Shown here: positions 36,293 to 53,663 of the stretch, piece by piece
Numbering within the stretch: position 1 is the first letter of the stretch
Layout: each line of letters starts with the position of its first letter
DNA from: Burkholderia stabilis
Lineage (GTDB): Bacteria > Pseudomonadota > Gammaproteobacteria > Burkholderiales > Burkholderiaceae
Reading direction: 5' to 3'
Length of the DNA: 64,000 bases
NCBI RefSeq assembly: GCF_001742165.1
Contig: NZ_CP016442.1
Location: 1,240,001-1,304,000, forward strand
The notes under the pieces: generated by a model
Told to the model about the DNA's origin: nothing
The model's database searches: none
What the model saw: the letters and a program-made list of their open reading frames with translations, nothing else
Made by a program: the position numbers and the translations under genes

Positions 36293-36418
36293 AAATTCGA
36301 TTTATTTTAAATACATGCAGCACAACCCTGAAAAATAACAAATCAGCAGTTTGTGTTTGAATACGGAATTGGGCTTCCGTTCAACGGTCGTGTACGCCAC
36401 CGATCGATCAAACCAACG

Positions 36419-37681
36419 ATGCAAAATATCGAACTCTACTTCGGCAGTACGGAAAAGCAGGATGTTTCCGAACAAAGTGCATTACGCCGCATCCTGCACT
36501 GGCTTGTCGAGCATCAGCAGCCGGCAATCGTCATCTGCGATGTATGGCTGCACCATCGTCAGATCGACATCCTCGTCGGCACCCATACGACAACGCTGCA
36601 AATCGAAATCAAGGGATACCGGGCGCCAGTGGCAGGCCAGCAGAACGGCGAGTGGACACTAACGTACGCCGATGGCTCGATCGCGCAGGTGAAGAACGGC
36701 TACCTGCAGGCGCTACGCAATAACCAGACGCTGCGAGACGAAATGTCGAAACACCTCGACAGCGGGGAAACCGTCTCCTATCCGAAAGGCGCTGTGATGT
36801 TTGAACCCAACATCCCGCACGGATCGACGCTCCTTATCCCCGCCGACCCGCGTGTCACAGTCTGCGGAGCCGACGAACTCGACCACCTGCTGTCGGCACC
36901 CGGCCGAAACCCTTGGCCGCTGGCGTGGTTGCGCGACTTCGCGCTTGCCCGCAATCTGATTGCCCTGTCCATACCGGACGCCATGACCTCACAGACAGTC
37001 GCCCATGCATATGAGGTCGCCGAGCGTACCGCTCCTGTGCCTACCGCGGCTGCCCCATTGCCGTCCAGGCACGCGGTCGTGAATCGCGTGCCCGAAGCGG
37101 TCGTCAAATCGCAACCGTTCACTGTCGCACCACGACCGGTTGTCGAGCGGGCACGCGTCGCGAACGATACGGGGCAGCACAAGCCAATCCCGATGGAACA
37201 GTCCCGCGGACATGTTCCACTCGGGCTGAGCAGCACAATCGAGACGCGTCCGACACGGCGCCGCGCGATACTTCGCTCTGCATCGGTCGTGCTCGCTGTC
37301 GCAGGAATTGCCTATGCAAGCGTCCACTGGCATCGAACGACCCCATCTGCGCCCAAGCAGGCACACGCATCAGAAGCCGGCAAGCAGGAATCGCGGCCAA
37401 CGTCGAACGTTTCGCGCGGTGTTCGCCATACACCCACCAGGCAGGTAGCGCGAGAGCCGCGCATGTCGACCGCCGACAGCAAGGCACCGAAACATGAGCG
37501 CCCGGAAAGCGCGCCTGCGCCAATCGCGGTCGTGTCCAGTACAGACACGTCGACGATCACATGTCCTGCCGGCGTCGATCGACTGGGATGCAACGGCAAA
37601 ACCGGCGTCCTCACGACACCCGAGTGCCCGCCCGCATTTCATGTACTCGGGAATACCTGCGTCCGCGATCAAGGCAACTGA
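36419..37681 (+). CDS. Membrane-anchored NERD-domain nuclease-like protein
   Basis: 420 residues from ATG 36419; a GTG at 36353 would add 22 residues, and no clear ribosome site marks either. Residues about 15-130 fit the NERD (nuclease-related) domain, a PD-(D/E)xK fold: Glu in SEQSALRRILHWL, Asp50 in RQIDILVG, and Glu63-x-Lys65 in LQIEIKGY. Residues 150-280 are a linker rich in Ala, Pro and Arg. One membrane helix (about 284-301, RSASVVLAVAGIAYASVHW) follows basic residues, predicting a cytoplasmic nuclease domain. A basic, disordered stretch leads to a C-terminal segment with four Cys (382, 391, 403, 414), probably periplasmic. It precedes an HNH gene by 118 bp. Catalytic residues look intact; function unproven. 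Confidence 0.7.
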   Translation: MQNIELYFGSTEKQDVSEQSALRRILHWLVEHQQPAIVICDVWLHHRQIDILVGTHTTTLQIEIKGYRAPVAGQQNGEWTLTYADGSIAQVKNGYLQALRNNQTLRDEMSKHLDSGETVSYPKGAVMFEPNIPHGSTLLIPADPRVTVCGADELDHLLSAPGRNPWPLAWLRDFALARNLIALSIPDAMTSQTVAHAYEVAERTAPVPTAAAPLPSRHAVVNRVPEAVVKSQPFTVAPRPVVERARVANDTGQHKPIPMEQSRGHVPLGLSSTIETRPTRRRAILRSASVVLAVAGIAYASVHWHRTTPSAPKQAHASEAGKQESRPTSNVSRGVRHTPTRQVAREPRMSTADSKAPKHERPESAPAPIAVVSSTDTSTITCPAGVDRLGCNGKTGVLTTPECPPAFHVLGNTCVRDQGN

Positions 37682-37799
37682 CTGTACGATCTCCCGCTCA
37701 CATCCACGTCGTTGTCGACGACAAAATTCCGACGCAGCACTGATAACAGAACAACGACGCGTACCACGGGCGACAAAATCGGTAATACGGGGAAACGAG

Positions 37800-39026
37800 A
37801 TGACCAGCAAAGGAAGAATCAAAAAGCATAAGGAAAGCATCAACGTATTCATGCAGGAAACGCTGAAGCTTCATATCCAGAACAAGTTATGGTCGTACGA
37901 TGCGACTGCCGATGACGGCATCGTAGTCATGAAGCTATGGCAAAAAGACCGTCAGGCTTTGCCCGATGGAAGAGAGCGAATCGGCATCTGGCGCCCCGTC
38001 CCGAAGAGTGAGGTGAAACTGGGACGCAGGGAACGTCAGAACAACATCGAACGAATGAGCGCGGGTGCGAAAACGTACGCTATCGTCCGCGGCCACCCCG
38101 ATTCTCACGACAGGGATTCATACGTTTACGAAAACGACCGCGTCTACGAACTCGGCCGTATCGAGATCGAGCCGGACGGCGCGAAATACGCCGTCGTTGA
38201 GCGCGTCATGACGATCGCCGAATTCTTGAGCCGGAACGAAGGCCCGAACAGCGACGACATCACCGCGGTTGACCTGACGGCCCTGCTCGCTTCCCTCGGC
38301 ACGCGAACGGTAGTCACCAAAAACAACCGGCCGGATGCCGAACAAAACTATCGCCCAAACCCTGATCACCGTGACGAAATGCTCGATGGCTATTGGGTAG
38401 GCCAACCTGCAAACGTAAGTCCTGCCAACGCATTCGCGCTGCATCTCGTCGAACGGTACAAGGAGGTCTGGCTCGGCGAGTATCTGGGCACGATCGACGA
38501 AGGAGACGGCCGGTTTTCGTTGATCGTCGGAAGCGTACAGCGGTTCCATGTGCCGGACCTGGACTTCTCGAACCCGACGCAGGAACCGCTGCGAAAAGCG
38601 CTGAAAAAGCCAGGCGCAGTCACCTATTCGTACTTTGATCCCGACGATTGGGAGCGCGCCGTCACCGATAACGCCCGGACACCCGACGGTCCCGTGTTCA
38701 AGATGTCGACTATCAAACAGCGCCGGCACCAGCAAGCATTTCGCGCTGCAGTGTTTGCCCGCCACGGAAAGGCGTGCATGGTCACCCAATGCAACGTTGA
38801 GGACCTTCTGGAAGCAGCGCACCTGACCGGCAGCAATTGGCAGGACGGTGACAACACCGCCGATCACGGCATTCCGCTGCGCGTCGACATTCATCGAGCA
38901 TACGACCGCGGTCTATTGACCCTTGATCGCAACCATCAGATCGATCATCTCGACGCTACGCTGGAGGAACAGTACGGTCAGTACCGATACCGGCCACTCG
39001 ACCGGCACGTCACAAAAACCAGCTAG
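37800..39026 (+). CDS. HNH endonuclease with uncharacterised N-terminal region
   Basis: 408 residues from ATG 37800 (GGGGAAACGAG upstream). The C-terminal HNH module (about 307-385) reads FRAAVFARHGKACMVTQC, then LEAAHLTG with the metal-binding His341, then HGIPLRVDIHRAYDRGLLTLD with His365 and Asp369; the usual Asn of the NGL motif is His356. This fits the HNH_2 type found in restriction-like proteins. Residues 1-300 match nothing I can name; two stretches (about 85-140 and 220-280, such as EVWLGEYLGTIDEGDGRF) have the beta-rich look of PUA/EVE-like base-reading folds. Inside the tRNA island with a NERD gene, so DNA restriction or phage defence is the leading idea. The domain call is firm, the function inferred. 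Confidence 0.72.
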   Translation: MTSKGRIKKHKESINVFMQETLKLHIQNKLWSYDATADDGIVVMKLWQKDRQALPDGRERIGIWRPVPKSEVKLGRRERQNNIERMSAGAKTYAIVRGHPDSHDRDSYVYENDRVYELGRIEIEPDGAKYAVVERVMTIAEFLSRNEGPNSDDITAVDLTALLASLGTRTVVTKNNRPDAEQNYRPNPDHRDEMLDGYWVGQPANVSPANAFALHLVERYKEVWLGEYLGTIDEGDGRFSLIVGSVQRFHVPDLDFSNPTQEPLRKALKKPGAVTYSYFDPDDWERAVTDNARTPDGPVFKMSTIKQRRHQQAFRAAVFARHGKACMVTQCNVEDLLEAAHLTGSNWQDGDNTADHGIPLRVDIHRAYDRGLLTLDRNHQIDHLDATLEEQYGQYRYRPLDRHVTKTS

Positions 39027-39044
39027 TGCTGGATACAACGCCAC

Positions 39045-39086
39045 AAAAACAAAAAACCCGCGAGTGCATGATCTCTCGCGGGTTTT
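39045..39086 (-). terminator. Terminator of tRNA-Leu, shared with the HNH gene
   Basis: Twelve-base perfect stem (39053-39064 with 39075-39086, core ACCCGCGAG / CTCGCGGGT). On the minus strand it is followed by TTTTTTGTTTTTG. It ends tRNA-Leu transcription and lies just after the convergent HNH stop. A degenerate copy is at 36180-36213. Confidence 0.85.
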
Positions 39087-39141
39087 CGGGCCTTCATCGA
39101 ATCGCATGAAAGCGATCCGTGGTGCCGGGGACCGGACTCGA
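39053..39141. repeat. Right 89-bp direct repeat: intact tRNA-Leu 3' end and terminator (att)
   Basis: Counterpart of 36180-36268. This copy is functional: it completes the acceptor and T-stem of tRNA-Leu and carries the intact terminator stem. It would be the island-borne end that reconstituted the tRNA on insertion. Confidence 0.75.
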
Positions 39142-39454
39142 ACCGGCAAGCCAGTTAAGGCGGCGGATTTTCGTCACACTGCTTCTTTCGAAGCCGGCAT
39201 CGTCTGGGCAATACCGTTCGTGCGCTGGACTATGCCTTCACCGTCGCGCGCGGGCGTGATCGCCACCCGTGCGCCTTAGGCGCCCCCCGTCTAGTCTCTA
39301 CACCTTCCTCGCGGGTATCGCGAGGCTTGGCTCGGCGTTGCCTCGATGCGCGCATCAGGGGTTTCACCGAATTTGAAGGGTTCTGCACCGACCGTTTCCG
39401 GCCGGGCACTCAATCGTTTAAGTCCGCTATGTTTACCAATTTCATCACCCCGGC
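39120..39454 (-). tRNA. tRNA-Leu(UAA), split by a group I intron
   Basis: Exon 1 is 39420-39454 (35 nt, starting GCCGGGGTGATGAAATTGG), exon 2 is 39120-39171 (52 nt including encoded CCA). Joined, they give a complete class II tRNA: acceptor GCCGGGG with CCCCGGC, discriminator A, D-arm with TTGGTAAA, anticodon stem GCGGA/TCCGC around loop CTTAAAA (anticodon UAA), a short-stemmed variable arm (GCC/GGC) and T-arm with TTCGAGT. Standard tRNA searches tend to miss it because 248 nt lie between U34 and A35. It reads UUA and UUG Leu codons. A TAGAAT -10 box sits at 39470-39475 on the complement. Confidence 0.92.
39172..39419 (-). ncRNA. Self-splicing group I intron (Azoarcus-like, IC3 type) in tRNA-Leu
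   Basis: 248 nt inserted between U34 and A35. All four conserved elements are present in order: P (AAATTCGGTGAAACC, about 39373-39359), Q (AACGCCGAGCCAAGCC, about 39340-39325), R (GTGTAGAGACTAGACGG, 39303-39287) and S (GAAGGCATAGTCCAG, 39239-39225). R and S supply the P7 guanosine site. The 5' splice site follows a U that pairs with the G of an internal guide GAGU (the required U-G wobble), and the last base is G. The core closely resembles the Azoarcus tRNA-Ile ribozyme, with longer peripheral helices. No homing endonuclease frame is inside. Confidence 0.92.
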
Positions 39455-39757
39455 AAGAGGGCGGACGCGATTCTACCATTGCTTGCGCATGCGTTCCCTT
39501 ATTCTGCCGCGCCGCATCACGACATCGGCCGCCGCCACGCGGATTCATCCTTCGTAATCGACGCCGATACGATTGCGCCGCCGATTTCGTCCCGTGCCGC
39601 AACATCCCCGATACAATCGAACCCGCCTCGTCCGACGGGCCCAACCGTCTGACGTTTGTGTCGTGCTTTTTGCGAAACAAGCGTCGCGTGCGTCATCGCG
39701 AAGTCACAAACGTTTTCGATAATTTCCTCGCCGAAAACGTTTACATCGCGCTACTTC
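39455..39757. promoter_or_regulatory. Divergent promoter region of tRNA-Leu and the LacI gene
   Basis: 303 bp. Minus-strand side: -10 box TAGAAT (complement of 39470-39475), about 16-21 bp before the tRNA 5' end; the -35 is weak. Plus-strand side: two LacI-type operator half-palindromes at 39708-39742. No gene. Confidence 0.6.
39708..39742. promoter_or_regulatory. Paired LacI-family operators before the regulator gene
   Basis: AAACGTTTTCG (39708-39718) and CGAAAACGTTT (39732-39742) form an inverted pair; each contains the AAACGTTT palindrome with central CG typical of LacI/GalR-family sites. They end 15 bp before the regulator's ATG, so autoregulation is likely. Confidence 0.7.
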
Positions 39758-51222: not shown

Positions 51223-51496
51223 GACATCTCTCCGAAACATGGGTTTGAGGAGCCGAATAGACGGAGGACGTCGCGGGAAATGACAGCCGTTTCGAAAATA
51301 TTTTTGGAAGCTGCCGAAGATGCCGCAATGCTGCACCGCGCCGTCGTTGTCAGCCGGGCTGCAGGGCCGTGCGGCGGTGTCGTGGATCGCGGCCTGCGCG
51401 GCGGGTACGCCGTCGGCAATGCTGCAACTGCACCGCGGCAACCGATCTGCCACCGGTTGAAACCGCCGCCAAGCCAGTGTATCGTGTGCGCTGCTA
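51223..51496. other. Divergent intergenic region before the TPP riboswitch
   Basis: 274 bp holding the thiC promoter (plus strand) and the MXKDX gene promoter (minus strand, AGAGAT ribosome region at 51224-51229). No gene. No -35/-10 pair stands out. Confidence 0.45.

Positions 51497-53663
<2,167 letters not shown>

Follow-up and report, generated by a model that had tools for sequence, protein, structure and literature searches.

The question raised by this locus is whether a tRNA-Leu(UAA) gene, interrupted in its anticodon loop by a group I intron, lies on the minus strand of the window (the whole 64-kb stretch of DNA that was analysed), and how such an intron came to reside there. A sequence-only reading had proposed the gene, together with its exon and intron boundaries, and had predicted that routine scans would overlook it. 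At default settings ARAGORN indeed reports 0 tRNAs in the 64-kb window. With introns allowed it finds a tRNA-Leu(taa) of 335 nt with a 248-nt intron from tRNA position 36, and the proposed boundaries are exact. The group I intron model of Rfam (RF00028) matches at 39429-39204 on the minus strand over the whole model (1-253; 40.4 bits, E = 9.3e-9), and RF00028 has no other match in the 8.53-Mb genome. Since this score lies below the gathering score of 50 bits, a gathering-level Rfam scan of the window gives a TPP riboswitch alone (51491-51607, plus strand, 64.1 bits). Default tRNA and Rfam scans leave the gene unannotated, and the genome therefore seems to be without a tRNA for UUA. The split tRNA-Leu(UAA) gene with its group I intron is real, under-annotated and readily overlooked. 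It spans 39120-39454 on the minus strand; two halves of 35 and 52 nt, 248 nt apart, join into a tRNA of 87 nt, CCA included, and the insertion lies between U34 and A35 (the 34/35 site). The features are as follows.

39420..39454, minus strand: 5' half of tRNA-Leu(UAA), 35 nt, 3'-terminal CUU with U34 (sequence and ARAGORN)
39172..39419, minus strand: group I intron, 248 nt, terminal G (ARAGORN and Rfam; core matched by model R1)
39120..39171, minus strand: 3' half of tRNA-Leu(UAA), 52 nt, CCA encoded (sequence and ARAGORN)
39050..39082, minus strand: likely intrinsic terminator (CCCGCGAG, 10-nt loop, CTCGCGGG, TTTTTTG), 38 nt downstream of the tRNA (by eye)

A terminator scan restricted to loops of at most 8 nt did not report the hairpin at 39050-39082, and a search of 38950-39700 for sigma-70 promoter-like sites gave none.

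Does the insert have the structure of a catalytic RNA? The plain nested fold of the precursor does not stand out from shuffled sequences (z = -1.61, 5 of 100 shuffles fold equally well; not significant), as expected for a pseudoknotted RNA, and the structural support is therefore comparative. The helices are supported by covariation, including P7 and hence the P3/P7 pseudoknot, whose absence the sequence-only reading had named as a point against it. The helices most directly concerned are located as follows.

39408..39423, minus strand: P1, formed by ACUUAA (last bases of the 5' exon and the start of the intron) and the internal guide UUGAGU, with G facing U34 (all 222 cells paired among 37 genus introns)
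39375..39380, minus strand: 5' strand of P3, CCCUUC (P3 paired in 99.8% of cells, 101 cores)
39283..39288, minus strand: 3' strand of P3, GGGGGG (covariation in 101 cores)
39292..39296, minus strand: 5' strand of P7, GACUA (P7 paired in 99.2% of cells, three of its five pairs with double changes)
39228..39232, minus strand: 3' strand of P7, UAGUC (covariation in 101 cores)

In the window the 5' exon ends in ACUU and the intron in G, P2 carries a GAAA loop, and the 3' domain consists of P9 (CGCAC/GUGUG) and two hairpins, one with a GAAA loop. In a set of 37 distinct genus introns P1 (222/222), P3 (222/222), P7 (185/185), P8 (148/148) and P9 (185/185) show standard pairs without exception, and P5a is likewise paired throughout (148/148). 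The remaining helices are paired in 258 of 259 cells (P4), 329 of 333 (P2), 182 of 185 (P9.2), 265 of 290 (P9.1) and 237 of 259 (P6), and the outer P8 in 142 of 148 and 143 of 146. Two features noticed from the sequence at the outset, the U-G pair at the 5' splice site and the intron-terminal G, are present in the window and in all 37 introns. In ten diverse cores 98.2% of cells are paired, with double changes in three of the five P7 pairs. For 101 related cores, aligned to a model that was built partly from the same sequences and hence leans towards this structure, the proportion is 95.7% as compared to 28.8-46.7% in slid controls, and 616 cells show a change on both sides, where shuffling gives 176 on average; P7 is no part of the alignment model. 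The covariation over 101 cores rules out a chance match to the group I model. The window intron possesses the P3-P8 helices with the P3/P7 pseudoknot that define a group I core. Subclass IC3 comprises small introns without a P5abc extension and with GNRA loops at P2 and P9; the window intron (248 nt, short P5, no P5abc extension, a GAAA loop both in P2 and in the distal hairpin of P9) presumably belongs to this subclass. Some relatives in the genus have TGAAA in the closing of the P9 hairpin.

Within the genus the intron is universal as far as sampled: the core model matches 65 of the 65 genomes searched, and the host gene is tRNA-Leu(UAA) in all 37 genomes examined. The Rfam gathering score is reached in none of the 61 genomes of the first genus sample, 39 of which had a match. 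Five of the 65 genomes contain a second core match; one of these lies in tRNA-Thr(UGU), one in tRNA-Arg(CCU), and three were read as tRNA-Ile(CAU) with a different insertion site. One genome of the genus (G014) harbors an additional match to the intronless tRNA-Leu(UAA) junction (L301), where ARAGORN calls no tRNA. In 23 of the 29 genus loci tested, the LacI-type regulator gene that flanks the tRNA in the window adjoins the intron gene; at the other 6 it was not found. Next to the 3' end of the tRNA lie a gene for a protein with a NERD domain and another for an HNH_2 endonuclease (36353-39023, plus strand). The HNH gene was considered as a mobility factor of the intron and rejected, as within flanks of about 1.5 kb it was found at one of the 29 loci (the window's own) versus the intron in every one; the 3' side of the tRNA hence looks strain-specific. 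A duplication of the tRNA end as an attachment site was also discarded: a 27-nt pattern of the 3' end, with up to 3 mismatches allowed, matches the window once, namely at itself. The intron is probably old in the genus and vertically inherited.

Beyond the genus, core matches are found in 96 of 200 genomes of the family (18 of 25 genera), in 47 of 300 genomes of the order and in 48 of 274 genomes of the class, the latter matches being in many cases weak or partial and not sorted by host. The intronless tRNA-Leu(UAA) junction occurs in 82 of the 200 family genomes; some of these also contain an intron, since other tRNAs can act as hosts. One other genus (g44) includes nine genomes with the tRNA-Leu(UAA) intron and nine others with the intronless junction. 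A pattern scan of named genomes resulted in at least 119 stretches. Among the matches listed, ARAGORN called tRNA-Leu(UAA) introns in Phenylobacterium, Caulobacter, Brevundimonas, Rhizobium, Bradyrhizobium, Hoeflea, Devosia, Reyranella, Carnimonas and Paraburkholderia; also among them are two Acidobacteria assemblies, one Bacteroidia assembly and cyanobacteria with tRNA-Leu(UAA) introns. Any of the records that are metagenome-assembled may be misbinned. ARAGORN called no intron-bearing tRNA in 16 of the 144 fragments examined and assigned a number of evident tRNA-Leu(UAA) loci to Ser, Phe or other tRNAs. Our own classifier of host tRNAs was plainly wrong for tRNAs other than leucine and was for this reason applied to leucine alone. 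All 158 distinct tRNA-Leu(UAA) intron contexts, drawn from several phyla and including the cyanobacterial ones, were placed at the 34/35 site. Introns at this site of tRNA-Leu(UAA) are found in many Proteobacteria, some Acidobacteria, and cyanobacteria.

These counts bear on what had seemed the most striking aspect of the locus, a core almost the same as that of the Azoarcus tRNA-Ile ribozyme at the insertion site of cyanobacteria. The site is shared, as stated, by all ten cyanobacterial rows of our tree. The likeness to Azoarcus is not borne out: seven tRNA-Ile(CAU) introns of that kind, a set from which Azoarcus itself is absent, are at best 72% identical to the window core (median 67%), less than the tRNA-Leu introns of other genera (92% and 80%, see below). 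Nor is the combination an oddity, given that the 34/35 contexts extend across several phyla. The supposed puzzle of an Azoarcus core at a cyanobacterial site thus falls away. With such introns common across phyla, the window intron alone does not discriminate between routes of spread.

Relationships were examined in a tree of 101 cores and 138 columns, with hosts labelled by hand from the exon ends and one row of unknown host. The window intron falls into a clade of 40 betaproteobacterial tRNA-Leu introns (32 UAA, 8 CAA; support 100/93). A separate clade (100/94) holds the seven tRNA-Ile introns of the Azoarcus kind. The ten cyanobacterial rows also group together (100/99) and are placed next to introns of tRNA-Ile and tRNA-Arg (98/85). 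Support for the central split of the tree is low (51/78), and 41 of the 98 internal branches stay open. The best core identity to the window is 95% within the genus, 92% for other betaproteobacterial tRNA-Leu(UAA) introns, 80% for alphaproteobacterial tRNA-Leu(UAA), 77% for Acidobacteria, 75% for alphaproteobacterial tRNA-Arg, 72% for both tRNA-Leu(CAA) and tRNA-Ile, and 63% for cyanobacteria. An AU test does not reject a tree in which the tRNA-Leu/Thr side and the cyanobacteria are united (p = 0.29).

Two accounts of origin have to be weighed. The proteobacterial and the cyanobacterial or plastid tRNA-Leu(UAA) introns might derive from one ancestral intron, whose site was either kept since before the phyla split or passed between them once. 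Host tRNA and site are the same, and a tree constrained to join the betaproteobacterial and cyanobacterial tRNA-Leu introns lies 1.84 log units above the free tree and is not rejected (AU test, p = 0.54); the free tree, however, puts the ten cyanobacterial rows beside tRNA-Ile and tRNA-Arg introns, their cores are at most 63% identical to that of the window, and the comparison rests on 138 columns with long branches. We consider common ancestry possible, with the balance tilting somewhat against it. It is very improbable, by comparison, that an Azoarcus-type tRNA-Ile intron moved recently into tRNA-Leu(UAA): the core is of the same class, and the AU test does not reject a joint clade of betaproteobacterial tRNA-Leu introns and the seven tRNA-Ile introns (p = 0.43), but the intron is present in every genus genome searched, the two groups form separate clades in the free tree, and the identity to tRNA-Ile introns does not exceed 72%, against 92% for tRNA-Leu introns outside the genus. 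The locus is almost certainly best described as a group I intron in tRNA-Leu(UAA), most likely self-splicing, an old resident of the genus and one member of a large family of proteobacterial tRNA-Leu introns.

Whether the cell depends on splicing is a matter of the remaining tRNA genes. The Rfam tRNA search gives 68 matches in the genome, none of which has the anticodon UAA when read with ARAGORN; the other tRNA-Leu genes have the anticodons CAG (3), GAG (2), CAA and UAG. A pattern for the intronless tRNA-Leu(UAA) junction likewise has 0 matches in the genome. A second intact tRNA-Leu(UAA) gene, which the sequence-only reading had named, together with RNA in the unspliced form only, as counting against it, is thereby rejected. 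No source of a UUA-reading tRNA other than the split gene was detected, so that splicing of its precursor is probably essential to the cell, and the intron may be taken as functional and most likely self-excising. A further tRNA-like gene of the genome (L052, G000:C2:2994776-2994847) has an unreadable anticodon and is reported by ARAGORN as tRNA-???.

By analogy with established group I chemistry, from which we infer both splicing steps, activity in the cell and the cell's need for them, the internal guide UUGAGU would pair with the 5' exon end ACUU in the folded precursor, a guanosine bound at P7 would attack after U34, and the freed U34 would then attack after the intron-terminal G, joining the exons into an 87-nt tRNA that reads UUA. 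A passage of PMC7717549 describes a related, alphaproteobacterial intron, in the tRNA-Arg(CCU) of Bartonella, that splices both in the cell and in the test tube. That the window insert is instead a decayed, non-splicing remnant, with UUA read some other way, is scarcely credible: UUA is very rare (29 long ORFs of the window contain it twice among 12555 codons), but the catalytic helices and splice-site features are intact in 37 genus introns, which a dead insert would not keep, and no further tRNA-Leu(UAA) turned up in the genome.

The survey also brought up introns in other tRNAs. Group I introns in tRNA-Leu(CAA) were found in 13 genomes (L083, L085, L087, L089, L090, L100, L114, L125, L126, L132, L149, L281 and L289), a set that consists of 14 classifier calls minus L238, a 430-nt misfit; for L125 the intron length of 250 nt given by ARAGORN was preferred over the 476 nt of the classifier. 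In all 13 the 5' exon ends in C34 opposite G, insertion at the 34/35 site of this tRNA resulting in a C-G instead of a U-G splice-site pair, and the eight that are included in the tree fall inside the betaproteobacterial tRNA-Leu clade. Introns in tRNA-Thr(UGU) (L031; L210, Massilia alkalitolerans; L215, a Thiobacillus MAG) share the CUU end of the 5' exon and the guide GAG with the window intron; the boundary after U34 is our own placement, and ARAGORN sets it one base later. A different type of tRNA-Ile(CAU) intron (L078, L081, L096, L106, L117, L119, L120, L121, L127 and L145-L147), apparently inserted between U33 and C34, has a larger 5' domain; the seven of these in the tree form a clade of their own. 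A divergent intron with a partial match of 43-46 bits and a CAU-like anticodon region was seen in two 0.5-Mb genomes (L143 in G094, L144 in G073), where ARAGORN gives the host as tRNA-Gln. In one 2-Mb genome (G165) two tRNA-Ile(CAU) genes, both with an intron, lie about 5 kb from each other (L134 and L135).

As a tentative view, which we think could well be wrong, the proteobacterial tRNA introns might belong to a single large family, unannotated for the most part, whose members shift from one anticodon loop to another and last chiefly in tRNAs that read rare codons, where a slowly maturing tRNA would be cheap. In this lineage the family would have entered an identical position in tRNA-Leu(UAA), tRNA-Leu(CAA) and tRNA-Thr(UGU); its arrival in the CAA tRNA would have forced the splice-site pair to change from U-G to C-G. 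The cognate codons of the five host tRNAs observed for the family have rarity ranks 1, 3, 5, 9 and 15 of 42 (rank-sum p = 0.0009), for a host list drawn up after the data had been seen and codon counts from one 64-kb window. Against a rare-codon bias stand two alphaproteobacterial loci (L159 and L211) called as tRNA-Thr(GGU), a tRNA for a common codon here (rank 23).

Introns of this kind are already known in bacteria, and the window intron is another member. A passage of PMC1995217 states that bacteria have four different intron-bearing tRNA genes. PMC8450103 describes group I introns in the tRNA-Ile(CAU) of Acidovorax and Burkholderia species, which had to be identified manually, as the program had not been built to detect them. 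Related cores in 96 of 200 family genomes and 47 of 300 order genomes compare with the "few or some" alpha- and betaproteobacteria that, besides cyanobacteria, are mentioned as carrying tRNA introns in passages of PMC4033280 and PMC11408192. In the open-licence literature no paper was found that describes tRNA-Leu(UAA) introns for this genus or for betaproteobacteria, which is weak evidence of absence. Host switches within one family, and intron-bearing next to intronless relatives in one genus, provide material for testing intron gain, loss and tolerance.

Among known systems the closest are the betaproteobacterial tRNA-Leu(UAA) introns of other genera (e.g. L112; L253 and L263 of Paraburkholderia), which share tRNA, 34/35 site, P1 and core with the window intron and in many cases its 3' end, GUGUGA[CT]G. 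They differ in loop and stem lengths and are at most 92% identical in the core; their loci are unannotated and belong to no published family. A tRNA-Leu(UAA) intron of 231 nt was reportedly described in 2002 from a Pseudomonas isolate, a gammaproteobacterial host; if this is right, a proteobacterial tRNA-Leu(UAA) intron has been in print for two decades. The tRNA-Arg(CCU) introns of alphaproteobacteria and others (Agrobacterium, Bartonella) are likewise small group I introns in an anticodon loop that are missed by annotation, but reside in another tRNA, after U36, and the alphaproteobacterial ones have at most 75% core identity. The Azoarcus-kind introns have the same general core and also occupy a tRNA anticodon loop; their host is tRNA-Ile(CAU), their site lies directly after the anticodon CAU and their 3' domain is shorter, whereas the window intron resides in tRNA-Leu(UAA) at 34/35. 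The cyanobacterial and plastid introns, finally, share both the tRNA-Leu(UAA) host and the U34/A35 site with the window intron and differ in the core (at most 63% identity over ten rows) and in the 3' end (e.g. GGAGAATG).
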